A DNA stretch of 64,000 nucleotides from Bryobacteraceae bacterium (GTDB lineage: Bacteria; Acidobacteriota; Terriglobia; Bryobacterales; Bryobacteraceae). Positions 3,956-34,402 of this stretch are shown one piece after another. The stretch is from the NCBI GenBank assembly GCA_019187195.1, contig JABAQT010000022.1:34583-98582 (forward strand). Reading direction: 5' to 3'. The notes under the pieces are model-generated. The model had not been told where the DNA came from. It saw nothing but the letters and a program-made list of their open reading frames with translations, and did no database searches. Numbering within the stretch: the stretch's first letter is position 1; every line of letters begins with the position of its first letter. The position numbers and the translations under genes are program-made.

Positions 3956-5074
3956 ATGCGGGCATTGCTTAGCATCGCCTTCATCTGCTCGAGCGGCTTT
4001 GCGGGCGCGGTGGAACTCGCAAACTCGAACAACGGCAGACAGGCGCTCGAGGAGCAGGGCTGTCTCGGGTGTCACAATTTCCAGGTGCGTCCCCGAAGCG
4101 ACGCTCCGGGGGTTCTCTCGAAGCGCCGGCTTTCGGCTACACGCCTGGCGGCGGCTATCTGGAGCCACGCGCCTACCATCTGGCATGCTCGGGAACAGCG
4201 GTCCTTCACCGTATTGAGCGCGCCTCAGGCTTATGATCTCGTGGCCTGGTTCATGGCGGCAGGCTACTTCGAACAGCAGGGAAGCGTGCGCAAAGGCGGA
4301 ATCCTGTTCGAAGCGGAAGGTTGCCTCAAGTGCCACGCCGTAATCGGAAAGCCCGCCGCCAGTCCGGATAACGCGGGACCCCCGCTCTCGAGTTGGAATA
4401 CCGTGACCGATCCCGTGCCGTTCCTTAAAGCCATCTGGAGCCACGCCCCCGTCATGCGCGCGGCGATGGATCGCAAACAGATGAACTGGCCTAGCCTCTC
4501 CTCCCAGGAGATGGGTGATATCCTCGCCTACGCCGGAGCCGTTGCCGGCCGTCCCAAGGATCCGGAGCTCGTCCTGGGGGACCCGGAGAAGGGGAAGGCC
4601 ATATTACGAATGCGCGAATGCGCCTCCTGCCACAACGGAAAACTCCTTGTGGGATCCGAACCCCGGGACCACACCTTGACCGAACTGTCCGCCACCCTCT
4701 GGGATCACGCTCCCATGATGATGAACTTCCCGCCCTCCCTCAATGGAAGTGAGATTTCGAATCTGCTTGCCTTCCTTTGGCAATCCGGCTACTTCGAAAT
4801 GCCCGGCAACGCCGTGCACGGGAAAGCGGTCTTTGAGGAGAAAAGCTGCGCGCTCTGCCATCAAGCCTCGAAGCAGAACACGCCGTTCCCCGGCAGGGAA
4901 GGTTTCGATGCCGCCAGGATGATCGCCGCCTTGTGGAGCCACCCGCCCCAGGTGATCGAGCAGGCCCGCGGCAAGGGAATCGTGTGGCCGCGCTTTGACG
5001 CCGTCGAGATGGCTGATCTCATCGCCTACATCAGGAACGGAAACGCTTCCCGCTGGCAAATCGAGCCCCGGTAA
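3956..5074 (+). CDS. Tetraheme c-type cytochrome with four repeated modules
   Basis: A 372-residue exported protein with a signal peptide (residues 1-18) and four CxxCH heme sites at C36, C123, C222 and C298. Each site is followed by the same module of roughly 85-95 residues: a W-S/D-H-A/P-P motif at W69, W161, W249 and W327, then an E/Q-(M/I/A)-x-(D/N)-L-(I/L/V)-A-(Y/F/W) helix (EMADLIAY in the last). It looks like four fused class I-type cytochrome domains, so a periplasmic electron carrier is likely; the redox partner is unknown. A GGAGGTG Shine-Dalgarno sequence precedes the ATG. It diverges from the glycosyltransferase, and bamA follows after 155 bp. Confidence 0.88.
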   Translation: MRALLSIAFICSSGFAGAVELANSNNGRQALEEQGCLGCHNFQVRPRSDAPGVLSKRRLSATRLAAAIWSHAPTIWHAREQRSFTVLSAPQAYDLVAWFMAAGYFEQQGSVRKGGILFEAEGCLKCHAVIGKPAASPDNAGPPLSSWNTVTDPVPFLKAIWSHAPVMRAAMDRKQMNWPSLSSQEMGDILAYAGAVAGRPKDPELVLGDPEKGKAILRMRECASCHNGKLLVGSEPRDHTLTELSATLWDHAPMMMNFPPSLNGSEISNLLAFLWQSGYFEMPGNAVHGKAVFEEKSCALCHQASKQNTPFPGREGFDAARMIAALWSHPPQVIEQARGKGIVWPRFDAVEMADLIAYIRNGNASRWQIEPR

Positions 5075-10327: not shown

Positions 10328-11053
10328 ATGCCCGCCCGAGTTTCCATTTTCGTCACCTGCGTCGTCGATCAGTTGTTCCCGCGCGTTGGAATGGCCATGG
10401 CGGAAGTGCTCGAGCGGGCAGGCTACGAAGTCGAATTTCGCGAAGACCAGACATGCTGTGGCCAGCCGGCGTTCAACACCGGCTACCGCGAGGACGCGCG
10501 CAAGGCAGCCGGGCATTTCATCCGGGTCTTCCGCGACGCGGAGTTCATCGTGGTGCCGTCCGGTTCGTGCGCGTCCATGGTTTCCCATCATTTTCTCGAC
10601 CTGTTTCCCAAGGATTCCAGCCACTACGAAGAGGCGGAATATCTGGCCCCGCGCGTCATCGAGTTCTCGCGATTCCTCACCGACGTGGCGAAAGTCGAAG
10701 ACGTCGGGGCGCGGTTTGAAGGCATCGTAACCTATCACGACAGCTGCCACGCGCTGCGCGAGTTGCGCATCAAGGAGGGACCGCGCCGGCTGCTGCGAAA
10801 AGTCCGCGGGCTCGAACTGCGCGAGATGAGCGCGGCCGAGGAATGCTGCGGTTTCGGAGGCACCTTTTCCGTGAAATTTCCCGAGGTGTCAGGAGCCATG
10901 GCACGCACGAAACTCGAGTCCATTCTCGCCACCGGAGCCTCCACGGTGGTTTCGATCGACTCCAGTTGCCTGATGCAGTTGCAGGGAGTGTTTACCCGGG
11001 CAGGCGCTCCGCTGAAGACGATGCATCTGGCTGAAGTGCTCGCCTCGAGGTAA
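10328..11053 (+). CDS. lutA: Lactate utilization Fe-S protein LutA
   Basis: A 241-residue cytosolic protein with two CCG domains, the cysteine-rich units that bind iron-sulfur clusters in LutA/YkgE and heterodisulfide reductases: CCGQPAF at residues 43-49 and CCGFGGTFS at 173-181, each paired with an upstream single Cys (VTCVVD; SGSCASM; HDSCHAL). LutABC proteins oxidise L-lactate to pyruvate. lutB follows after 6 bp. No Shine-Dalgarno sequence precedes the ATG; instead TACAAT lies 11 nt upstream, so the leader would be only a few bases. Confidence 0.9.
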   Translation: MPARVSIFVTCVVDQLFPRVGMAMAEVLERAGYEVEFREDQTCCGQPAFNTGYREDARKAAGHFIRVFRDAEFIVVPSGSCASMVSHHFLDLFPKDSSHYEEAEYLAPRVIEFSRFLTDVAKVEDVGARFEGIVTYHDSCHALRELRIKEGPRRLLRKVRGLELREMSAAEECCGFGGTFSVKFPEVSGAMARTKLESILATGASTVVSIDSSCLMQLQGVFTRAGAPLKTMHLAEVLASR

Positions 11054-11059
11054 TTCGCG

Positions 11060-12469
11060 ATGCTGATGAAACCGGAACAAGAGAAGCAGATCCGCCAGAC
11101 CGTGGCGGATCCCAAGATTCAACTGGCGCTCTATTCAGCGACGGCGCGGCTCAAGGAGAAACGGGAGGAAGTGGTGGCGCCCGAGGCGCTGCCCGAGTAC
11201 CAGGAACTGCGCACGCAGGCCAACCGCATCAAGAAGCACACGCTCGAAAATCTCGATGTCTATCTGGAGGAGTTCGAGGCCAACGTCGAGGCGCACGGGG
11301 GCAAGGTGGTCTACGCGCGCAACGGCCAGGAGGTGACGGATTTCATTCTCGGGCTGGCGCGCGAGCGCGGCGTGAAGATGCTGGTGAAATCGAAGTCGAT
11401 GACGACCGAGGAGATTCACCTCAACGAACGTTTGGAGCATCACCACCTGGAGGCCGTCGAGACCGACCTCGGCGAGTACATCATTCAGCTCGCCCACGAC
11501 CGTCCCTACCACATCGTCGCCCCGGCCGTGCACATGACCCGTCAGGACGTGGCTGACGTTTTTGAAAAGAACCTAACGGATCCGCGCACCGAGGAACCCG
11601 GCAAACAGGCGATGATCGCCCGCCGCAACCTCCGCGAGAAGTTTCTCGAAGCGGGCATCGGCATTTCCGGCGCGAACTTTCTGGTGGCGGATTCGGGCGC
11701 CGTCTGCATTGTCGAGAATGAGGGAAACGCCCGCCTGACGACCACGGCTCCGCCCATCCACATTGCCGTGGCGGGGATCGAGAAGATGATTCCGCGGGCG
11801 CGTGATCTGGCCGTGTTTCTGAAACTGCTGGCGCGCAGTGGAACGGGTCAGTTGTTGACGGTGTACACCTCGTTTCTCTCCGGCCCGCGGCGCGGCGGCG
11901 AAGCCGATGGGCCAGCCGAATTCTACGTTGTGCTCATGGACAACGGCCGGACGCGTCTGCTGGCCGACGCGGAGAAACGCCAGTCGCTCTACTGCATCCG
12001 CTGCGGCGCCTGCCTCAACGCCTGCCCCGTCTACCGCAAGATCGGCGGGCACAACTATCCCGGCGCTTATTCCGGCCCCATTGGAGCCATCATTACGCCG
12101 CAATACCAGGGCATCGCAAAGGATCCGTGGCTTCCTTTCGCCTCGAGTCTTTGCGGAGCCTGCGCCGAGGTTTGTCCGGTCAAGATCGACATACCGAAGA
12201 TCCTCCTCGATCTGCGCAAGGAGGTGATGGAGGACCGCGCGGCCCGCGGTGACGGCTTCCTCGAACGCAAGGCGTTTCAGATGTACGGCTGGCTGACGCG
12301 GCGGCCGAAACTCTATGCCCTGGCCGGACGAATCGGGGCGAGGATGGCGCGCGCGCCGGGGGCGGCGTCGATGGGCCCGGCGGCGAAGTGGGCGAGCGTG
12401 CGCGAAGTGCCGCTGCCGGCCAGGAAGAGCTTCCGTGACCAATGGCGGGAACGGGAGAAATCGAAGTGA
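11060..12469 (+). CDS. lutB: Lactate utilization Fe-S protein LutB
   Basis: A 469-residue protein of the LutB/YkgF family. The N-terminal two thirds is the LUD domain (KSKSMTTEEIHLNERLE and GANFLVADSGAVCIVENEGN). Two ferredoxin-like 4Fe-4S motifs follow: CIRCGACLNACP from residue 312 and CGACAEVCP about 50 residues later. The basic C-terminal domain (KSFRDQWRER) is typical of the family. It is the electron-relay subunit of the L-lactate oxidising LutABC complex. Its gene ends inside the start region of lutC (GTGA overlap with the preferred lutC start), which indicates translational coupling. Confidence 0.92.
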   Translation: MLMKPEQEKQIRQTVADPKIQLALYSATARLKEKREEVVAPEALPEYQELRTQANRIKKHTLENLDVYLEEFEANVEAHGGKVVYARNGQEVTDFILGLARERGVKMLVKSKSMTTEEIHLNERLEHHHLEAVETDLGEYIIQLAHDRPYHIVAPAVHMTRQDVADVFEKNLTDPRTEEPGKQAMIARRNLREKFLEAGIGISGANFLVADSGAVCIVENEGNARLTTTAPPIHIAVAGIEKMIPRARDLAVFLKLLARSGTGQLLTVYTSFLSGPRRGGEADGPAEFYVVLMDNGRTRLLADAEKRQSLYCIRCGACLNACPVYRKIGGHNYPGAYSGPIGAIITPQYQGIAKDPWLPFASSLCGACAEVCPVKIDIPKILLDLRKEVMEDRAARGDGFLERKAFQMYGWLTRRPKLYALAGRIGARMARAPGAASMGPAAKWASVREVPLPARKSFRDQWREREKSK

Positions 12470-17281: not shown

Positions 17282-18718
17282 TCAGGCAATAATCCCCGGG
17301 ACCGGTACGCCATACACGTCGGTAAGTCGCATCTGCCGTCCCTGGTAGCGGTAAGTCAGCCTCGTATGATCCATGCCCAGCAGATGAAGGATGGTCGCAT
17401 GGAGATCATGGATGCTCACCGGCTGTTCCTCGGCTTTATAGCCGAACTCGTCACTCGATCCGATTACCTGGCCGCCCTTGATGCGGGCTCCGGTCATGAA
17501 GATGGTCATCGCGCCGGGATTATGGTCGCGCCCCACGCCACGTTGCGAGATCGGCATGCGGCCGAACTCGCTTTGCCAGATCACCAGCGTGGAATCGAGC
17601 AGGCCGCGATTCCGGAGATCGGTGATCAGGCCGGAGATGGGGAGGTCGACCTCGGCGGCGTGGCGCGTGTGATTGTCCGCGATGTTTTCGTGCGCGTCCC
17701 AGGTGTCGAGGTTCTGGATGCCGAGCCCGCCATGGTACAACTGCACGAAACGGACGCCGCGCTCGACCAGGCGGCGCGCCAGGAGACACTGCCTGCCGAA
17801 CGGCTCAGTCGTGGGCTGATCGAGCCCGTACAGCTTCTTCGTCGCCGGGGATTCCCCTTCCATATCGACCGCCTCGGGCGCGCGCGACTGCATACGGTAG
17901 GCCAGTTCATACGATGTGATGCGGGCGGCCAGTTCGGAATTCGCGGGATTCCTCTGCTCGTCGAGTGCATTGAGCCTGGCGAGCAGGTCGAGCCGCGCCC
18001 GCTGCCGCGCGTCCGAAATGGAAGGGGGCGGTTTCAGATCGGTGATGGGGCTGCCGGAGGAGCGGAAGATCGTGCCCTGATACACCGCGGGCATGTAGCC
18101 CGCGCTCCAATTGGCGGGACCTCCGAACGGGCCTCCCCTGGCGTCGTAGATGACGACAAAAGCCGGCAGATTCTGATTCTCCGACCCGAGCCCGTAAGTT
18201 ACCCATGAGCCCACGGACGGCCCTCCCATGCGTACGGAACCGGTTGCCAGTTCGTAGTGGGCCATCACGTGGTCATTGGACCGTCCCACCACGGACCGTA
18301 TAAATGCCAATTCGTCGGCGTGGCGCGCGATCTCCGGGAAGATCGATGAGATTTCCATTCCACAATCGCCGTACCTGCGGAACTCGAACGGAGAAGGCAT
18401 CAAGGGTCCGGGATGGCCTTGTCTCACGACGATCTCGCCCCTGCCCGCGAGCGGCTGTCCGGCATACTTGCGCAGCGCGGGCTTCGGGTCGAATGTGTCC
18501 AGGTGGCTCACGCCGCCACTCATGAAGAGGGAGATTACGGCTTTGGCGCGCGGCGCGAAGTGGGGTTTTCCCGGCGCCAATGGAGTTTGGCGAGACTCGC
18601 CGGCGGACTGTGCGGCAAGCAGATCCTCACGGTCCAATAAATAGGCGAGCGCAAGGCCGCTCAGGCCTCCGCCCGCTTCAAACAGGAGTTGCCGGCGCGA
18701 GACAAACTGCTTCGGCAT
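17282..18718 (-). CDS. DUF1501 family protein, Tat-exported
   Basis: A 478-residue protein of the DUF1501 family (alkaline phosphatase/sulfatase-like fold). The N-terminus carries a twin-arginine signal, SRRQLLF at residues 7-13, followed by a hydrophobic stretch. Family motifs visible include KAVISLFMSGGVSHLDTFDPK, GDCGMEISSIFPEIARHADELAFIR, SVVGRSNDHVMAH and WQSEFGRMPISQRGVGRDHNPGAM. The biochemical role of DUF1501 is not established. In Planctomycetes and Acidobacteria it is almost always beside a DUF1549/DUF1553 gene, as here: the gap to that upstream partner is only 3 nt, so the two are cotranscribed and probably act together outside the cytoplasm. Confidence 0.9.
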   Translation of the reverse strand: MPKQFVSRRQLLFEAGGGLSGLALAYLLDREDLLAAQSAGESRQTPLAPGKPHFAPRAKAVISLFMSGGVSHLDTFDPKPALRKYAGQPLAGRGEIVVRQGHPGPLMPSPFEFRRYGDCGMEISSIFPEIARHADELAFIRSVVGRSNDHVMAHYELATGSVRMGGPSVGSWVTYGLGSENQNLPAFVVIYDARGGPFGGPANWSAGYMPAVYQGTIFRSSGSPITDLKPPPSISDARQRARLDLLARLNALDEQRNPANSELAARITSYELAYRMQSRAPEAVDMEGESPATKKLYGLDQPTTEPFGRQCLLARRLVERGVRFVQLYHGGLGIQNLDTWDAHENIADNHTRHAAEVDLPISGLITDLRNRGLLDSTLVIWQSEFGRMPISQRGVGRDHNPGAMTIFMTGARIKGGQVIGSSDEFGYKAEEQPVSIHDLHATILHLLGMDHTRLTYRYQGRQMRLTDVYGVPVPGIIA

Positions 18719-18721
18719 GGG

Positions 18722-21301
18722 CTACCTCATGTAGAGAAATTCGCTGAGGTTGACCAGAACGTGGGTCAGATCCTCGATGCTGTTGTGTTGCAGAAACTCG
18801 AGGCCGAGGGAACGCTCCTTGTCCGTGGGAGGGCGGCTGAGAGCGATCTCGTAGGCAAGCCGCAACTGTTCGTCCGGCCTGCTGGAAAGGCCTCGAACGC
18901 GGTCCGCAAAAAGCCTCGACTGTTCGAGGACAAATTCGTTGTTGAGCAGGGCGAGCGCCTGGGTCGCCACCGTGGATACGTTCCTCCGCCCGCAGGTGAT
19001 GGTCTGGTCCGGCAGGTCGAAGATCTCGAAGAACGGGAAGGGAAGGCCGCGTTTGCGGTAGACGTATACGCCGCGGCGCCACGTTTCCGGCCCGTCTTTC
19101 TGGCGGCGCCAGATGCCGTTCTTCATCGATTCGAGCGACTCCCTGGGGAGGGCGGGGAACACGGCAGGTCCTTCCATTCGCGCGTTGAGCGTTCCGGCCA
19201 CGGTGAGGATCGCATCGCGCACGATCTCCGCCTCGAGGCGCTGTTCACGAAAACGCCACAGCCACGTATTGTCCGCATCGCCGGCCTCATCCCGCGCGTC
19301 TCCGAAAGAAGAAGCCATCTGATATGTCCGGCTGTTCATGATGAGCCGGTGCAGGTTCTTGATGCTCCAACCCCGCTCGCGAAATTCCACCGCCAGCCAG
19401 TCGAGCAGATCCGGATGCGAAGGCATATCGCCGGTGTGGCCGAAGTTATCGAGCGACGGTACGATGCCGCGCCCGAAGTGGTGATGCCAGATGCGGTTCA
19501 CGATGACCCGCGCCACCAGCGGGTGGTCCGCTGAGGTGAGCCACTCCGCCAGCGCGCGGCGGCGTCCGCTGGTATGACGTCCGGGGGGCGGCGACTCGAC
19601 AGGCGGTTCTCCTTTCACCAGCACGGTTACAAAGCCCGGCCGCATGGTCGAGCCATGGCTGTACATGTCCCCGCCATAAAGGAAGTAGGATGGCGGGGGA
19701 ACGTAGGGCTTGCCGGGATCCGGCCGGTACGATCCTTCCGCCGCCTCGCGCCTCATCCCCTTGCCCGGCGCCGGCTCATCACCGGGACCGTCCGGAGCGA
19801 AGCGGTAATCCCCATCCGCGATCCCCATCGCCATCGGGATGGGCGCCGGCCGCTCCCTTTCAATGTTTCTCATCTCCGCCAGAATTCCGTCGCGAAGCGC
19901 GCGCTCTCCGGGTTTAAGAAGCGGTTCCACTTCCGCGCTCGAGACCGTGGTGGTGCGAATCACCTGGTTGGCCAGCAGCGACTGGCCGGGGGTGCGCCGC
20001 TCCTCGGGGGTCGCGATGGCTTCCCTGACATTGGCCGGGAACTTCTCGTATTTTTGCCGGACCAGAAGCAGCTTATAAGGATTCTCGATGGCGGCGATCC
20101 GGCGTTTCAGCGGCGCGAGGCGAGCGTCGATGGCGGCGTTGCGCCGCTGGTATTCTTCCGCCCGCGCCTTGGAAACCAGGGGGTAGTCCACCTCCACGTA
20201 GCTGAACAGCGAGGCCTGGAGCCGGTAGTAATCGCGCTGGAGGATGGGGTCGAACTTGTGGTTGTGGCAGCGGGCGCAGTGGACGGTCAACCCCATCACG
20301 CCGCGCCCGAGCGTGGCGATCATGTCATCCAGGTAGTCGTAACGGAACTGAGGATTGTCCTTCTCGCGGAAGCCGACCTTGGCGTAGTTGCGAAGAAATC
20401 CGGTTGCGATCAACGTGTCGTTGGTAACATCGTCTACTTCGTCGCCCGCGATCTGCTCTTCGAGGAACCGGTTGTAGGGCGTGTCCCGGTTGAACGCACG
20501 GATTACGTAGTCACGGTAGCGCCAGGCATTGGGCCGGTCGAAGTCATGTTCATAGCCGTTCGAGTCGGCATAGCGCGCCACATCGAGCCAGTGGCGTCCC
20601 CAGCGCTCGCCATAATGCGGCGAGGCCAGCAGTTTGTCGATGAGTCTTGCCCAGGCATCCGGCCGCTTATCGTCGAGGAAGGCGCGAACCTCGGCGGGAG
20701 AGGGGGGCAGCCCGATAAGGTCGAGGTACGCGCGCCGTACCAGCGTGCGGGCGCCGGCGCGCGGAGCAGGCGTCAGGCGGCGCGCGTCGAGAGCCGCCTT
20801 GATGAAGGCGTCAATCGGGTTGTTCGCCCATTGCGCGTCCGTCACCAGGGGCACGGGCGGGCGAGTGGGAGCGCGAAAACTCCACCAATCGCCGGCATGG
20901 GGCGGCAGAGGCGAATCCTCGAGCGCCTTCAGCGGATTGGCCGCCGTCTTGCCGATTTCCCCCTCCCATACGGCTCCCTGATCGATCCACTCCCTGATGG
21001 AGTCCACTTCGGCCGCCGTGAGTTTTCCGTCCATCGGCATGGCCGGCTTTCCGAGGCCGGAAATACGCTGGAAAAGAACGCTTTGGCTGGCGTTGCCCGG
21101 GGACAGGGCGGGTCCCTTTTCGCCGCCCTTGAGCGCCGACCGGCGGCTGCGAAGATCGAGTTTGCCCAACTGTATGGCGGCCCCGTGACACTTCACACAT
21201 CGCGCCTCTAAAATAGGTCTGATCTCTTTTTCGAACGAGACCGGCGCGGCCGCGCACACGGAGATCGCCAGAAACAAGAACAGGGGTCTTGGCGCCAGCA
21301 T
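18722..21301 (-). CDS. PSD1/DUF1549/DUF1553 cytochrome-domain protein
   Basis: An 859-residue exported protein. A signal peptide (1-19) is followed by the planctomycete-type cytochrome domain (PSD1) with one CVKCH heme site at residues 35-39 and GNASQSVLFQRISGLGKPAMPMDG. DUF1549 follows (about 140-350; NPIDAFIKAALDARRLTPAP, RRAYLDLIGLPPSPAEV, GERWGRHWLDVARYADSNGY). DUF1553 is C-terminal (LAEWLTSADHPLVARVIVNR, GRGIVPSLDNFGHTGDMPSH, RRNVSTVATQALALLNN). The function of this architecture is unknown; it is widely thought to work with DUF1501 in degrading polymers. A TATAAT on the minus strand at 21318-21323 lies 16 nt before the ATG. Confidence 0.9.
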   Translation of the reverse strand: MLAPRPLFLFLAISVCAAAPVSFEKEIRPILEARCVKCHGAAIQLGKLDLRSRRSALKGGEKGPALSPGNASQSVLFQRISGLGKPAMPMDGKLTAAEVDSIREWIDQGAVWEGEIGKTAANPLKALEDSPLPPHAGDWWSFRAPTRPPVPLVTDAQWANNPIDAFIKAALDARRLTPAPRAGARTLVRRAYLDLIGLPPSPAEVRAFLDDKRPDAWARLIDKLLASPHYGERWGRHWLDVARYADSNGYEHDFDRPNAWRYRDYVIRAFNRDTPYNRFLEEQIAGDEVDDVTNDTLIATGFLRNYAKVGFREKDNPQFRYDYLDDMIATLGRGVMGLTVHCARCHNHKFDPILQRDYYRLQASLFSYVEVDYPLVSKARAEEYQRRNAAIDARLAPLKRRIAAIENPYKLLLVRQKYEKFPANVREAIATPEERRTPGQSLLANQVIRTTTVSSAEVEPLLKPGERALRDGILAEMRNIERERPAPIPMAMGIADGDYRFAPDGPGDEPAPGKGMRREAAEGSYRPDPGKPYVPPPSYFLYGGDMYSHGSTMRPGFVTVLVKGEPPVESPPPGRHTSGRRRALAEWLTSADHPLVARVIVNRIWHHHFGRGIVPSLDNFGHTGDMPSHPDLLDWLAVEFRERGWSIKNLHRLIMNSRTYQMASSFGDARDEAGDADNTWLWRFREQRLEAEIVRDAILTVAGTLNARMEGPAVFPALPRESLESMKNGIWRRQKDGPETWRRGVYVYRKRGLPFPFFEIFDLPDQTITCGRRNVSTVATQALALLNNEFVLEQSRLFADRVRGLSSRPDEQLRLAYEIALSRPPTDKERSLGLEFLQHNSIEDLTHVLVNLSEFLYMR

Positions 21302-27855: not shown

Positions 27856-29973
27856 ATGAGGACTAGCAGAAAGCGAAGAGTCATCCTTCGAATCAGCCTG
27901 ACGCTCATGGTGTTGATCGGCGCGGCTGTCCTGGTGAGCGCGCCCAAGTCACCGTTTACACAGAACGACAGGGCCTATTATCTCGATGAAAAGACGGTGA
28001 ACTATGTGCGGCCCGGATTGAAGGTGACCGTAACCGCCGCATCGATTGCCACCGACGGCGTCATCACGGCGCGGGTGAAGTTCACCGATCCGGCGGGCGT
28101 TCCGCTGGACAAGGACGGCATTCAAACCCCCGGCGTGATTGCGGCGAGCGCCATTGCCGCCTACATACCAAATGGCCAAAGCCAGTACACCGCCTACACC
28201 ACGCGGCGGCAGACCAGCGCCCTCACGGGGGAGAGCGCGATACAGGCCAACGCCGATTCCGGGGGAACATGGACCAAAGTGGCGGACGGTGAATACGCCT
28301 ACAAGTTCGGCTTCAAGGCGCCGGCAAACTATGAGAAAAGCTCGACCCATGCCATTGGCGTCTATGCCAGCCGCAACCTGACGGAATTCGAACTGGGCAC
28401 GGCGCTATCCGACTCGGTTTTTCCTTTCGTGCCCGACGGCTCGGTGAAGCCCGAGACGCGGGACGTCGTTCGCACCGAAAGCTGCCAGCGCTGCCATGTG
28501 GATGATTTCGCCTTCCACGGAACCACCGGAAGAACCAGCGTCCAGATGTGCGTTCTCTGCCACACTCCGCAGTCGACGGACCCGGACACCGGGAACACGC
28601 TAGACTTCCCGGTGATGGTCCACAAGATACACATGGGCAAGGACCTGCCGGGGGTGAAGGCCGGCGGAAAGTACCAGATCATCGGATTCGGCAATGCCGT
28701 GCATGACTATTCCCACATCGGCTTTCCCACCGATCAGCGGAACTGTACGGTGTGCCATGAACAGACCACCGGCGCCGGGCAGGCCAGGAACTACCTCACC
28801 AAACCGAACCGCGCGGCCTGCGGCGCCTGCCATGACGACGTGAATTTCGAGACCGGCGAGAACCACGTCAATCTTCCGCAGGTCAGCGATAACCAGTGCT
28901 CGGGATGCCACATTCCGCAGGGTGAGTTGGAATTCGACGCTTCCATCCTGGGCGCGCATACCATTCCCTACAACTCACGGGAGTTGACGGGGTTCCAGTT
29001 TGCCATCACCAAGGTGGATAACGGCTCGGCCGGAAAGAAGCCGTCGGTCACCTTCACTCTCGCCGACAAGAACGGCAATCCGCTCGCGCCATCGAACTTC
29101 TCGTCGCTGAATGCGGTGTTGGGCGGGCCGACGACGGACTATATCACCAGGTTCCCGGGAGCCGCCACGAGCGGTTATGTCTCCGAGAGTGTGCTCAAAG
29201 CGACAGGGGCAGACGGCACCTACACCTACACCCTTTCCAATGCGATTCCCGAAAACGCCCGCGGAACCTTCTCGATCGGATTGGAGGGCCGGCGCGTCGA
29301 GGTCATCTATAAAGGCACCAGGCAGGAACAATCCGTCCAGTACGGGCCCAAGAAGAACGCCGTTGCCTACTTCACGGTTGACGGGACCCCGGTTTTCCCG
29401 CGCCGGCAGGTTGTGGCGATCGAAAAATGCCAGCGCTGCCACGTCAGCCTGCGCCTGCACGGTGAAAACCGTATCGACACCATCGAGCAGTGCGTCACCT
29501 GCCACAACCCCGTGGAAACCGATGTGGCGCGGCGTCCCGCTTCGGCCGGAGCCCCGCAGAGCATCGACTTCCGCCAGATGATTCACAACATACACGGCGG
29601 CGAGAGAACGAAGAATGCGTACAAGATCGAGGACTACATCATCTATGGATTCGGCGGCGCCGTGCATAACTTCAGCGAAGTCACCTTTCCTGGCCGTCTC
29701 GCTTCCTGCGACATGTGCCACGTGAACGGATCGCAGCAGTTGCCGCTGCCCGAAACCAATGCCGAGGTCTCGAATCCACGCGGCTACCTCAACCCGGGCG
29801 GACCGGTGGCGGCGGCCTGCCTGTCCTGCCACCGCGGCAGGGACGCCGCCTCGCATGCGCTCGCCAACACGACAACGCTTGGTGAGAGTTGCGCGGCCTG
29901 CCACGGTTCCAACTCGGAATTCGGGGTCGTGAAGGTTCACGCGGCGCCGTCGACTCCCCAGGCAAACGAATAG
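27856..29973 (+). CDS. OmcA/MtrC-family decaheme c-type cytochrome
   Basis: A 705-residue exported protein with exactly ten CxxCH sites between residues 210 and 683: CQRCH, CVLCH, CTVCH, CGACH, CSGCH, CQRCH, CVTCH, CDMCH, CLSCH and CAACH. The arrangement is two pentaheme halves split by a beta-rich domain (about 375-515), as in OmcA/MtrC; the heme-free first 200 residues are also beta-rich. The N-terminus (RVILRISLTLMVLIGAAVLVS) is a signal peptide or anchor with no lipobox Cys, unlike MtrC. Such proteins move electrons to or from minerals or partners at the cell surface. No MtrA/MtrB homolog is adjacent. It is monocistronic, with a terminator at 30000. Confidence 0.92.
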   Translation: MRTSRKRRVILRISLTLMVLIGAAVLVSAPKSPFTQNDRAYYLDEKTVNYVRPGLKVTVTAASIATDGVITARVKFTDPAGVPLDKDGIQTPGVIAASAIAAYIPNGQSQYTAYTTRRQTSALTGESAIQANADSGGTWTKVADGEYAYKFGFKAPANYEKSSTHAIGVYASRNLTEFELGTALSDSVFPFVPDGSVKPETRDVVRTESCQRCHVDDFAFHGTTGRTSVQMCVLCHTPQSTDPDTGNTLDFPVMVHKIHMGKDLPGVKAGGKYQIIGFGNAVHDYSHIGFPTDQRNCTVCHEQTTGAGQARNYLTKPNRAACGACHDDVNFETGENHVNLPQVSDNQCSGCHIPQGELEFDASILGAHTIPYNSRELTGFQFAITKVDNGSAGKKPSVTFTLADKNGNPLAPSNFSSLNAVLGGPTTDYITRFPGAATSGYVSESVLKATGADGTYTYTLSNAIPENARGTFSIGLEGRRVEVIYKGTRQEQSVQYGPKKNAVAYFTVDGTPVFPRRQVVAIEKCQRCHVSLRLHGENRIDTIEQCVTCHNPVETDVARRPASAGAPQSIDFRQMIHNIHGGERTKNAYKIEDYIIYGFGGAVHNFSEVTFPGRLASCDMCHVNGSQQLPLPETNAEVSNPRGYLNPGGPVAAACLSCHRGRDAASHALANTTTLGESCAACHGSNSEFGVVKVHAAPSTPQANE

Positions 29974-29999
29974 ACGATCACCTCCTTTGTGGTAATCAA

Positions 30000-30028
30000 G
30001 GCCCGCCGGGTTGGCGGGCCTCTTTCTT
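30000..30028 (+). terminator. Rho-independent terminator after the decaheme cytochrome
   Basis: A perfect 8-bp stem GGCCCGCC/GGCGGGCC (30000-30007 and 30013-30020) with a 5-nt loop, followed by TCTTTCTT. Confidence 0.85.
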
Positions 30029-30372: not shown

Positions 30373-30894
30373 ATGGCAAGAGAAAGCGCTCAGCATAAAC
30401 TGGATCGGGTACGGCCCCCGAGAGTTCATATCACCTACGACGTGGAAGTGGGCGACGCAATCGAGATCAAGGAGTTGCCGTTTGTCCTCGGCGTTCTCGG
30501 TGATTTCACCGGCATGCCCGAACAACCCCTGCCCCGCCTTCGGGACCGCAAGTTCGTCGAGATCAATCCCGACAACTTTGACAAAGTCCTCGAGGCCATG
30601 AATCCGCACCTGGCCTTCCAGGTCGAAAACAAGCTCAGCGAAGATCCGGACGCCGGACAACTTCGCGTCAATCTGAATTTCAAGAGTCTCGACGACTTTG
30701 AACCGGAACAGGTGGCCAAGCAGGTGAAGCCTCTCAAGGAACTCCTCGACCTGCGCACCAAGCTGGCCGATCTTCGCGGCAGCCTCATGGGCAACGACAA
30801 ACTCGAGGAAATGCTGCTCGACTCCGTCGGAGATCCGGACAAGCTCGCGAAATTGAAGGCGGAAGTAAAGCCCGAAGGAGGCAGCAATGAGTGA
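30373..30894 (+). CDS. tssB: T6SS contractile sheath small subunit TssB
   Basis: A 173-residue ImpB/VipA family protein. The N-terminal RVRPPRVHITYDVEVGDA and KELPFVLGVLGDFTG are diagnostic, followed by LRDRKFVEINPDNFDKVLEAM and DLRTKLADLRGSLMGNDKL. TssB pairs with TssC to form the contractile sheath that drives the Hcp tube outward in the cytoplasm. It is the first gene of the T6SS cluster, with AGAGG upstream of the ATG; its stop overlaps tssC by 8 nt. Length and motifs are normal. Confidence 0.95.
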   Translation: MARESAQHKLDRVRPPRVHITYDVEVGDAIEIKELPFVLGVLGDFTGMPEQPLPRLRDRKFVEINPDNFDKVLEAMNPHLAFQVENKLSEDPDAGQLRVNLNFKSLDDFEPEQVAKQVKPLKELLDLRTKLADLRGSLMGNDKLEEMLLDSVGDPDKLAKLKAEVKPEGGSNE

Positions 30895-32371
30895 CGCACA
30901 ACGCGTAGCCGCGCAGGCGCAGGAGACCGTCCTTGAAACCAGTCTGCTCGACAAGATCGTGGACGAAGGCCGTTTAGGCAAGGACCCCGCCGCCAAGGAG
31001 CGCGGCAAGGAACTCATCAAGATCTTCGCCGAACAGGTGCTGGAAGGCTCGATGGCCGTGTCGAAAGACGCCGAGGCCATGATCAACGCGCGCATCGCCC
31101 AGATCGACCACCTGCTCTCCATCCAGTTGAATGAAGTCATGCACCATGCCGCGTTCCAGAAGCTCGAATCGACCTGGCGCGGCGTGAAGTACATGATGGA
31201 CCAGAGCGAAACGAGCGATATGTTGAAGATCAAGATCTTCAACTGCAACAAGCGCGAACTCCTCCGCGACCTGCAACGGGCGCCGGAGTTCGACCAGAGC
31301 ACCCTGTTCAAGAAGGTTTACGAGGAAGAGTTCGGTGTCTTTGGCGGCGCGCCCTTCGCGGCCCTGGTCGGCGACTACGAATTCAGCCGTCATCCGGAAG
31401 ACGTCGAGTTGCTCGAGCGCGTGGCCCAGGTGGCGGCTTCCGCGCATGCGCCCTTCCTTTCCGCCGCTTCACCGGAAATGTTCAACCTCGAGAGCTACAC
31501 CAGCCTCGATGCTCCTCGCGACCTCGGAAAAGTGTTCGACACGACGGAGTACGCCAAGTGGAAGTCCTTCCGCGCCAGCGAGGACAGCCGCTACGTCGGT
31601 CTCACTGTTCCACGCATCCTCATGCGTCTGCCCTATGGCCGGGCCAATAAGCAGATCGAAGCCTTCAACTACGAAGAGGGAGTGGACGGCACCGACCATA
31701 GCAAGTATCTCTGGGGCAATGCGGCCTGGGCTCTCGGCGCCCGGCTGACCAACGCTTTTGCCCGCCATGGCTGGTGCGCCGCCATCCGCGGCGTCGAAGG
31801 CGGCGGCCTCGTCGAAGGCCTTCCCGTACACAACTTCTACACTGATGAAGGCGACGTCGCCATGAAGTGCCCCACCGAAGTTCCCATCACCGACCGCCGG
31901 GAGAAGGAACTCGCCGACCAGGGGTTTGTCCCGCTGGTGCACTGCAAGAACACCGACTACGCCGCTTTCTTCAGCGTGCAGTCCTGCCAGAAGCCCAAAC
32001 TGTATGACAAGCCGGCGGCTAACGCCAACGCCCGCCTGTCCACGCAGTTGCCCTACATTCTTGCCTGCAGCCGCTTTGCGCACTACCTCAAGGCGATGAT
32101 GCGGGATAAGATCGGCAGCTTCATGTCGCGCACGGACTGCGAAATCTGGCTCAACCAGTGGATCAATAATTACGTGGTTCCGGATGACACCGCGTCACCC
32201 ACCATCAAGGCTTCGCACCCGCTCCGTGAGGCACGAATCGACGTCCAGGAGATTCCCGGCAAGCCGGGAGCCTATCGCGCGGTTGCGTTCCTGCGGCCCC
32301 ATTTCCAGCTCGACGAACTGACAGTTTCGTTGCGCCTGGTAGCTGAACTCCCCGCGCCGGCGAAGAAGTAA
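30887..32371 (+). CDS. tssC: T6SS contractile sheath large subunit TssC
   Basis: A 494-residue ImpC/VipB family protein, normal length. Motifs: LLSIQLNEVMHHAAFQKLES, WRGVKYMMDQSETSDML, GDYEFSRHPEDVELLERVAQ, LMRLPYGRANKQIEAFNYEE, YLWGNAAWALGARLTNAF and the C-terminal LNQWINNYVVPDDTASP and HFQLDELTVSLRLVAELP. It forms the sheath with TssB. The start ATG lies inside the end of tssB, so translation is coupled. A 92-bp gap then separates it from hcp. Confidence 0.95.
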   Translation: MSDAQRVAAQAQETVLETSLLDKIVDEGRLGKDPAAKERGKELIKIFAEQVLEGSMAVSKDAEAMINARIAQIDHLLSIQLNEVMHHAAFQKLESTWRGVKYMMDQSETSDMLKIKIFNCNKRELLRDLQRAPEFDQSTLFKKVYEEEFGVFGGAPFAALVGDYEFSRHPEDVELLERVAQVAASAHAPFLSAASPEMFNLESYTSLDAPRDLGKVFDTTEYAKWKSFRASEDSRYVGLTVPRILMRLPYGRANKQIEAFNYEEGVDGTDHSKYLWGNAAWALGARLTNAFARHGWCAAIRGVEGGGLVEGLPVHNFYTDEGDVAMKCPTEVPITDRREKELADQGFVPLVHCKNTDYAAFFSVQSCQKPKLYDKPAANANARLSTQLPYILACSRFAHYLKAMMRDKIGSFMSRTDCEIWLNQWINNYVVPDDTASPTIKASHPLREARIDVQEIPGKPGAYRAVAFLRPHFQLDELTVSLRLVAELPAPAKK

Positions 32372-32463
32372 CCGGCAAAGGAAAACCTTCCTGGAGAGTT
32401 ACCGCACCTGACTCTTCGTAACTGATAGAACAAACACTTGAGCTGAGAGGAGAATTCTCGAAT

Positions 32464-32958
32464 ATGTCGCAATTTGATGCATTCCTGAAGATCGATGGGA
32501 TCAACGGGGAAACCGACGACAAGATGTTTCCGCAGCACATCGAGCTGCTTTCCTATTCGTTCGGAGCCACGCAGACCGGTAGCTTCGCCTACGGCGGCGG
32601 CGGTTCCACCGGCAAGGTCCAGTTCCAGGACTTCCACTTCAGCAAGCGCGCCGACGACGCCACGCCCCACCTCTTCGATGCCTGCTGCAGCGGCAAGCAC
32701 ATTCCCAAGTGCGAGCTGCTTGTACGCAAGTCGACCGGTGACGGCGGCCAGCAGGTCTTCTACAAAGTGACCTTCGAGGACGTGCTGCTCTCGAGCCAGA
32801 CCGTCAGCGGCCAGGGCCACGGCGATCCCATCCCCACGGAGTCCATCAGTTTCAACTTCGCCAAGATGATCATGGCGTATGGGAAACAGGACGCCAAGGG
32901 CAAGGTGGGCGCTCTCGTCCCCAAGGGCTGGGATCAGAAGAAGAACGCCAAGGTTTAG
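32464..32958 (+). CDS. hcp: T6SS tube protein Hcp (TssD)
   Basis: A 164-residue Hcp family protein: MSQFDAFLKIDGINGET, HIELLSYSFGATQTGS, FQDFHFSKRADDATPHLF, VTFEDVLLSSQTVSGQG and ESISFNFAKMIMAYGKQD. Hcp stacks as hexameric rings to form the inner tube and carries effectors. A strong AGAGGAG ribosome site overlaps the 10-bp palindrome GAGAATTCTC just before the ATG. The 122-bp gap behind it holds two inverted repeats, consistent with separate expression control of this abundant subunit. Confidence 0.95.
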   Translation: MSQFDAFLKIDGINGETDDKMFPQHIELLSYSFGATQTGSFAYGGGGSTGKVQFQDFHFSKRADDATPHLFDACCSGKHIPKCELLVRKSTGDGGQQVFYKVTFEDVLLSSQTVSGQGHGDPIPTESISFNFAKMIMAYGKQDAKGKVGALVPKGWDQKKNAKV

Positions 32959-32995
32959 TCCGCGCGTTTCTTCGGCTGATTGTAACGGAAATGAC

Positions 32996-33064
32996 GCATG
33001 GCGCCCGACCGTATTTACCGGACGCCATGCGCCCGACTATTTTGTTCTGCTGCCATGCGGGCAG
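32996..33064 (+). promoter_or_regulatory. Two hairpin-forming repeats between hcp and tagJ
   Basis: GCATGGCG/CGCCATGC (32996-33003 and 33023-33030, 19-nt loop) is followed by CTGCC/GGCAG (33050-33054 and 33060-33064, 5-nt loop). GCGCCCGAC also occurs twice here (33001, 33029). Neither hairpin has a clean T-tract, so partial termination or mRNA processing is more likely than a full terminator. Confidence 0.4.
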
Positions 33065-33080
33065 ATTAATCGAGTAAACA

Positions 33081-33827
33081 ATGACATCCAGGGAACTATT
33101 CCAGGCCGGCAAGCTGACCGAGGCCATTCAGGCGCTGAGCGCCGAGTTGCGTGACAACCCCAGCGACTCCAAGAGGCGGACATTCCTGTTCGAACTGCTT
33201 TGCTTTGCCGGCGATTTTGACCGCGCCCGCAAACACTTGGAACTGCTGGCAAAGGAAAATCAGAAAACGGGCATGGGCGCTCTCCTCTACGAGGGGCTGA
33301 TGAACTCCGAGCGCACCCGCAACGAGACTTTTGAAAAGAAGGAGTATCCGTTCGTTCCCGCCGGCCCATCCCGCGGCGGCGTCCTGAACGGCACTGCATT
33401 CGAATCCATCGAAGACGCCGACCCGAGGATCGGCGCGCGGCTCGAGGTCTTCACCGCCGGAGCCTACTTGTGGATTCCCTTCGAGCATATCGATTCCATT
33501 ACCATCGAGCCCCCCAAACGCCTTCGGGATCTTCTTTGGGCGCCGGTTCTCATTCACACCGCCGAGAGCTTCAGGGGAGCGGAACTGGGCGAATGTCTCC
33601 TGCCCGTTCTCTGCCCCTTCTCCTTCAAACACCCCGATGACAATGTCCGGCTCGGCCGGTCGACGGTCTGGGAATCCGAAGATAGCAGGGACATCCCCTA
33701 CGGCCAGAAGATGTTCACCGTCGACGGCGAGGACTTTCCCCTGCTCGACATTCGCAAGATCGAGTTCCACGCAGCCGAGGCGCCCGCCGCATCCGCCGGC
33801 GAGGTGGGAGAAGCATCGGCGAGCTGA
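33081..33827 (+). CDS. tagJ: T6SS accessory protein TagJ (ImpE family)
   Basis: A 248-residue ImpE/TagJ family protein. The N-terminal half is TPR-like (ELFQAGKLTEAIQALSAELR, RRTFLFELLCFAGDFDRARK, HLELLAKENQK). The C-terminal half has the ImpE domain (DPRIGARLEVFTAGAYLWIPFEHI, PKRLRDLLWAPVLIHT, GECLLPVLCPFSF). In Pseudomonas aeruginosa the homolog HsiE1 binds the TssB sheath subunit and is thought to help sheath handling by ClpV; it is found only in some T6SS clusters. No Shine-Dalgarno sequence is evident before the ATG. It sits between hcp and tssE in the usual order for clusters with ImpE. Confidence 0.88.
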   Translation: MTSRELFQAGKLTEAIQALSAELRDNPSDSKRRTFLFELLCFAGDFDRARKHLELLAKENQKTGMGALLYEGLMNSERTRNETFEKKEYPFVPAGPSRGGVLNGTAFESIEDADPRIGARLEVFTAGAYLWIPFEHIDSITIEPPKRLRDLLWAPVLIHTAESFRGAELGECLLPVLCPFSFKHPDDNVRLGRSTVWESEDSRDIPYGQKMFTVDGEDFPLLDIRKIEFHAAEAPAASAGEVGEASAS

Positions 33828-33904
33828 TCACTGCTGCCTTGGCGGGGGCAAACCTGGCGGCATCTCCGTGTCCCCCCGCGCTTTCGCCACGGCCGGTTTG
33901 ACCC

Positions 33905-34402
33905 ATGCCCAGGGATAACGATCAGATTGTTTCGCTGCCGATCCTCGACAGGCTGACGGATCTGGAGCCGAATCTGGCCTCCGACCCTCCCCTCACGAGG
34001 GCCCATTCCGTGCGCCTGCTCAAAGCCTCCTTGCGGCGCGACCTCGAATGGCTCTTCAACTCGAGGGCGAACCACGAATGTCCCCCCGCTTCCGAACTGC
34101 CCGAGGTGGCCAAATCCGTTTACAATTACGGTTTGCCCGACTATACGCACCTCAGCCTCAACAATTTTGGAGACCGCCAACGCCTGCAAAAGCAGTTGGA
34201 ACTGGCTATCAGTCTCTTCGAACCGCGCCTTGACGGCATCACCGTCCGTCTTCTCGACAACAGCTTCGATCCGGGCCGTGCCCTGCGCTTCCACATCGAC
34301 GGCATGCTGAAGATGGACCCCGCCCCGGAGCACATCTCCTTCGACACCGTGCTCGATATTCCGACGGGTGAGTACCAGGTGAGGGATTCCAGTGCGGGAT
34401 GA
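33905..34402 (+). CDS. tssE: T6SS baseplate subunit TssE
   Basis: A 165-residue gp25-like protein of the TssE family. Motifs: SVRLLKASLRRDLEWLFNSR, ELPEVAKSVYNYGLPDYTHL, SLNNFGDRQRLQKQLELAI and ISLFEPRLDGITVRLLD. It belongs to the baseplate wedge and helps start sheath assembly. A 77-bp gap without a clear ribosome site separates it from tagJ; the tssF GTG lies inside its 3' end (11-nt overlap), so tssE-tssF-tssG form a tightly coupled block. Confidence 0.92.
   Translation: MPRDNDQIVSLPILDRLTDLEPNLASDPPLTRAHSVRLLKASLRRDLEWLFNSRANHECPPASELPEVAKSVYNYGLPDYTHLSLNNFGDRQRLQKQLELAISLFEPRLDGITVRLLDNSFDPGRALRFHIDGMLKMDPAPEHISFDTVLDIPTGEYQVRDSSAG

Follow-up and report, generated by a model that had tools for sequence, protein, structure and literature searches.

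An OmcA/MtrC-family decaheme cytochrome encoded apart from an MtrAB-type pair in a Bryobacteraceae genome

Here we report that a gene at positions 27856-29973 (+ strand) of a 64,000-nucleotide stretch of Bryobacteraceae DNA, hereafter the window, encodes a true member of the OmcA/MtrC family of decaheme c-type cytochromes standing alone outside any cluster, and that the same genome carries an MtrA-type decaheme and an MtrB-like barrel on a different contig. Based on these observations, we consider it fairly probable that the window decaheme serves a dispersed Mtr system as its outer cytochrome, working in trans with that MtrAB pair. Soils are rich in Acidobacteriota, whose role in iron and humic reduction is described as unsettled in PMC3669403. 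Surveys that require a contiguous mtrCAB, among them PMC8805035 as far as its accessible text describes it, miss dispersed systems of this kind. With a single copy of each part, each at its own locus, a genome such as this is also a test case for docking on a conduit encoded elsewhere, and raises the question of whether an outer cytochrome needs a lipid anchor.

The window decaheme and its surroundings

The open reading frame starts with ATG and encodes 705 residues. Its ten CxxCH motifs fall into a first pentaheme group (domain II, borders approximate; 28483-28911, + strand; residues 210, 232, 297, 322 and 348) and a second (domain IV; 29428-29904, + strand; residues 525, 546, 618, 655 and 679), while shuffling the residues in 10,000 trials gave at most two CxxCH per shuffle. 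The protein scores 532.8 bits against TIGR03507 (cut-off 209.3) over positions 3-672 of the 672 in the profile, PF22113 matches it in two stretches, and its top sequence relatives with a solved structure are MtrF, OmcA and MtrC. It is the sole TIGR03507 gene above cut-off in its genome.

An AlphaFold2 model made from 31 aligned sequences (mean pLDDT 84.1) has the predicted fold of OmcA, MtrC and MtrF. The 16 best rows in Foldseek and the 11 best in VIA-align were all OmcA, UndA, MtrC or MtrF; the top VIA-align match was 4lmh_B (Z 25.9, rmsd 4.1, 579 aligned), and the best row from outside these proteins reached Z 7.4. The initial annotation had called for such a comparison, and the model matches this group well above all other folds; together with the motifs and the profile score, it bears out the OmcA/MtrC-type assignment with heme sites in two fives that was first made from the letters. 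A closer periplasmic multiheme family, named there as the observation that would speak against the assignment, was sought, and none scored near TIGR03507.

Exactly ten histidines outside the CxxCH motifs (221, 256, 259, 337, 368, 535, 577, 580, 667 and 695) are kept in 30-31 of the 31 aligned rows, and His 165 in 29. From this conservation the ten are possible distal ligands, one per heme, the pattern expected for ten bis-His hemes. Heme number, grouping and fold are like those of the Shewanella MtrCAB cytochromes (MtrC, OmcA, MtrF and UndA; PDB 4LMH, 4LM8, 3PMQ and 6R2Q), and the ten further conserved histidines and the presence in the genome of an MtrA-type decaheme and an MtrB-like barrel are likewise shared. 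Unlike in Shewanella, the loci here are separate, there is no lipobox, and the barrel lies outside the reach of TIGR03509.

A hydrophobic N-terminal segment (residues 3-27; 27862-27936, + strand), which forms one helix in the model, is a predicted signal peptide or membrane anchor. The protein has 20 cysteines, every one inside a CxxCH, so a lipobox cysteine is impossible, in agreement with the earlier claim. A lipobox-like pattern occurs in only 5 of the 106 family rows tested (10 of 116 rows, without an N-terminal anchor motif, were left out), and copies beside mtrAB mostly do without one too; because absence is the rule in the group, the missing lipobox says little about location. The cysteine pair of domain III is also absent; 20 relatives carry a pair in that domain with a spacing of 5 or 6 (8 of 116 rows, again without an N-terminal anchor motif, were left out of this count), and Shewanella outer-membrane decahemes have a CX8-15C disulfide there according to the available part of PMC4486940. 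A Shewanella-type flavin switch is therefore not expected. The genome has a GspD above cut-off (367.8; cut-off 351.35), which is relevant to export of the window decaheme since MtrC and OmcA of Shewanella are type II secretion substrates, as stated by a title cited in PMC3669403.

The window comes from C19, a contig of 102 kb and one of the 110 that make up the genome (5.83 Mb, 97.8% complete); among named genomes, Bryobacterales and Bryobacteraceae MAGs are the nearest to it. No open frame of the window is an MtrA or MtrB gene, in agreement with the earlier claim that the decaheme has neither as a neighbour. No other frame of at least 70 codons has more than four CxxCH, and the motif occurs at all only in a tetraheme protein (3956-5074) and a PSCyt-type protein (18722-21301). 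In an mtrCAB operon mtrA and mtrB adjoin mtrC; here both homologues sit on contig C11.

Upstream of the decaheme lies a 1129-aa frame that we take to be an indolepyruvate ferredoxin oxidoreductase-like protein. The frames downstream are presumably TssB, TssC and Hcp, followed by ImpE and gp25 (Pfam), and we read 30373-34402 as a type VI secretion cluster. A terminator-like hairpin of 10 pairs with a T-rich tail stands just 3' of the gene (29999-30021, + strand); the hairpin scan by itself is weak, because its 4 sites in the window compare with 2.8 +/- 1.7 in shuffled sequence. A scan for a sigma-70-type promoter of the gene found none.

The MtrAB-type locus on contig C11

A search of the genome for paired CxxCH motifs located a locus on contig C11 in which an MtrA-type decaheme, a barrel and a small monoheme gene follow one another. 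The MtrA/DmsE-type decaheme (L049:7149-8090; 313 aa, ten CxxCH) scores 244.1 bits against TIGR03508 (cut-off 192.2). The MtrB-like barrel candidate is a family-less frame of 681 aa (L049:8030-10075), whose true start probably lies later, and the monoheme protein has 69 aa (L049:10108-10317). No OmcA/MtrC gene was found at this locus, which is on a different contig from the window gene and, judging by the lengths of the contigs, at least about 71 kb from it. A QrcA/c7-like pentaheme (L049:6132-6596) lies directly upstream, in a stretch (L049:3960-6596) that also holds a gluconate 2-dehydrogenase subunit 3 and a GMC oxidoreductase and that does not precede the pair in two other genomes of the genus, G003 and G010.

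The MtrB fold of the barrel is assigned through a homologue of the same genus (L181), 55% identical to it; the model is that of the homologue. Folded from 25 sequences (mean pLDDT 78.0), it has as its best PDB match 6r2q_B, the MtrB of the solved Mtr complex (Foldseek E 1.2e-13), aligned with Z 23.8 and rmsd 3.6 over 542 residues, the next row standing at 17.0. Sequence profiles reach less far. The C11 barrel scores 12.6 bits against TIGR03509, far under the cut-off of 240.05; no match to that profile was found in the genome, and since the controls gave no match either, this absence is not used as evidence. Pfam MtrB_PioB (PF11854) is reached by 5 of 16 barrel relatives (best E 4.1e-8) and TIGR03509 hardly at all, and a sequence-profile search of the barrel against the PDB returned no MtrB, so that the fold alone showed the likeness.

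With an MtrA-type decaheme and an MtrB-fold barrel on C11, the genome therefore has an MtrAB-type pair. The initial annotation had reasoned that passage across the outer membrane would need another kind of conduit; that inference fails, since the genome search it proposed finds such a pair, and the conduit looks scattered over the genome rather than missing. It had also named, as a finding that would tell against it, an MtrAB pair clearly partnering another cytochrome; that case does not arise here, for the window gene is the only one above the TIGR03507 cut-off in the genome, and none was found at the MtrAB locus. The locus resembles the mtrC-lacking mtr clusters in the available part of PMC4245776 in being mtrA-mtrB without mtrC, and differs from them in that a family mtrC is present elsewhere in the same genome.

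Linkage and lineage among relatives

Over 201 genomes, a TIGR03507 gene above cut-off and a strong relative of the C11 barrel (E < 1e-50) each occur in 100; 93 genomes have both, 7 and 7 have one only, and 94 have neither. Sampled loci held 134 family genes, 116 of them distinct, and mtrA, mtrB and mtrC lie together in most sampled relatives. An MtrA and/or MtrB homologue stands within 6 kb on the same strand of 77 of the 116, another 24 have no such neighbour despite flanks of 3.5 kb or more on either side, and 15 sit at contig edges; these counts are not population frequencies, because the loci were picked partly by closeness to the window protein. In the Group 5 MtrCAB of Bryobacterales, the same order, a tetraheme lies beside mtrB, and MtrC and MtrA are decahemes (PMC8805035, accessible text); here, unlike there, mtrC, tetraheme and mtrAB are apart. 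That survey took only clustered mtrC, mtrA and mtrB, and its accessible text reports no mtrC duplicates in Group 5, whereas stand-alone copies are common among the relatives sampled here. Judged by title or the start of the abstract, no paper that we found deals with mtrC genes standing alone in Acidobacteriota.

Two further features of the sampled loci may be recorded. A second, divergent MtrA and barrel pair, its barrel about 25% identical to the first, occurs in a conserved neighbourhood with no OmcA/MtrC gene (L136:5958-8900, L138:6899-9798 and L139:7054-10026). Records titled Acidimicrobiia and Arcobacter (L158 and L184) carry Bryobacteraceae-like mtrC-mtrB-tetraheme clusters, for which misbinned contigs seem likelier than transfer.

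Family members occur in each of the 12 genomes of the genus. Seven (G001, G002, G004, G005, G006, G007 and G011) have mtrA-mtrB with a nearby mtrC and the small monoheme gene; four (the present genome, G000, with G003, G008 and G010) have mtrA-mtrB-monoheme, a locus at which no mtrC was found, although the G010 contig ends 0.6 kb past the monoheme gene and a more distant mtrC is possible. Orthologues of the window gene (at least 62% identity) occur only in G000, G002, G003, G008, G009 and G010 among the 12. The window lineage is thus present in all 5 genomes without a clustered mtrC and in 1 of 7 with one, namely G002, a pattern that may reflect one or two events, because close relatives are few and 4 of the 5 are about 90% alike in the window protein. 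The pairing with MtrAB is not unique in G003 and G010, which have further family members. The remaining genome, G009 (99% complete), keeps the window gene and its neighbours, and in its assembly we found neither a barrel nor a TIGR03508 gene over cut-off (best E 8e-12); the syntenic place for MtrAB is occupied by other DNA up to the contig end.

A tree of the 116 rows, made by a quick method, places the window gene with L058, L065, L144, L145, L146 and L147 in a seven-row clade (SH-aLRT 97), all stand-alone or contig-edge genes. An origin as a displaced copy of the clustered mtrC of the genus was considered and rejected, as the clustered copies form a separate seven-row clade. Neighbour synteny is kept in G000, G003, G009 and G010 only, and among these four copies dN/dS is 0.07-0.10, which indicates constraint. 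Judged from the tree and the substitution rates, the window gene represents a stand-alone lineage of its own that is kept by purifying selection. The stand-alone state is not of single origin, because the label changes often on the tree (OP 15 changes, ORPH 16). Conservation of domain II minus domain IV leans lower in domain II in the stand-alone clade, within one standard deviation (0.009 versus 0.070, sd 0.062).

A candidate electron path and its alternatives

The window also encodes a tetraheme c-type cytochrome of 372 aa (3956-5074, + strand), a possible periplasmic partner, and its homology to the tetraheme encoded next to mtrB in clusters of relatives lends comparative support to the earlier guess that it is involved. 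All 34 of its 34 matches in the sampled loci fall in the class labelled by place near mtrB, a result partly expected because the sample was built around mtrC genes; a tetraheme lies within 6 kb of a family gene in 37 of 116 rows. A single best homologue, nearly full-length in most cases, occurs in each of the 12 genomes of the genus. For all Group 5 Acidobacteriia, Baker et al. 2022 (PMC8805035) report a predicted periplasmic tetraheme encoded directly after mtrB, with no quinone oxidoreductase close by. Judging by position and heme number, we infer that the two tetrahemes are of the same family.

Candidate quinol oxidases are encoded elsewhere in the genome. A protein on contig C5 (L051:7436-9151) has nine CxxCH and a b561 domain, an architecture like that of CbcL; in 6 of 116 rows a homologue of this protein lies close to the family gene. 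Contig C25 carries a pentaheme related to a NapC/NirT-type protein (L243:6132-7565), a 65% homologue of a pentaheme of that type. From heme and domain content and relatedness, these two are likened to the CbcL/MtoC/MtrH and NapC/NirT-type quinol oxidases of PMC6295460; the candidates here differ in being unlinked to the window gene. In G011 a relative of the nine-heme/b561 protein, a 1076-aa frame with 19 CxxCH, stands beside a clustered mtrC (L066:3426 onward and L199).

We propose that quinol would be oxidised at the inner membrane by the nine-heme/b561 protein or the NapC/NirT-like pentaheme, and that electrons would cross the periplasm, perhaps via the window tetraheme, and pass through the MtrA-type decaheme within the MtrB-like barrel. 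If expressed, located at the surface and docked to the C11 pair in trans, the window decaheme would then let them exit towards Fe(III), humics or a similar acceptor, provided that flow is outward. Behind this path stand the genes, families, folds and linkage in relatives described above, and the four genus genomes with an mtrC-less MtrAB locus all carry the window lineage. Against it stand G009, which keeps the gene in an assembly without MtrAB, the lack of linkage to mtrAB, and the absence of a lipid anchor and of the domain III cysteine pair.

The same G009 assembly is consistent with an unlikely alternative, that the stand-alone lineage left MtrCAB and works as a soluble or cell-associated OmcA-like extracellular carrier, receiving electrons from a different conduit or from other cells, with MtrAB and the monoheme protein working alone. 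The separation of the window clade from the clustered mtrC of the genus (SH-aLRT 97) and the missing lipobox point the same way, as does PMC4245776, which describes mtr clusters that in some cases have no mtrC, and conduction by MtrAB on its own. However, no other conduit was identified, the family and the barrel co-occur tightly over the 201 genomes, a window-lineage gene persists in every genome of the genus that lacks a clustered mtrC, and MAG gaps could explain G009. We give less credence still to an MtrC-type lineage wholly independent of MtrAB, a released or self-anchored extracellular electron mover of which G009 would be the natural case.

Improbable, too, and ranked below these, is retention of the window decaheme in the periplasm as an electron hub or store, either free or held by an uncleaved N-terminal segment. 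The missing lipobox, the single helix at residues 3-27 and a proline directly after the likeliest VSA cleavage site, as read from the sequence, would fit, but the fold and the arrangement of hemes are those of surface cytochromes, no periplasmic family comes near the TIGR03507 score, and the lipobox is generally missing from copies next to mtrAB as well. A local function tied to indolepyruvate oxidation or type VI secretion is very improbable, since the synteny kept in four genomes is set against other neighbours in the distant clade members L145, L146 and L147 and the terminator-like hairpin 3' of the gene.

Two other gene groups in the window may be mentioned. On the minus strand at 17282-21301, a DUF1501 protein adjoins a two-CxxCH protein of PSCyt1/PSCyt2/PSD1 type, and the two form a pair of the kind seen in Planctomycetes. 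At 10328-12469, a CCG-domain protein and a LutB-like LUD/4Fe-4S protein are encoded, probably for lactate utilisation, a possible electron donor pathway.
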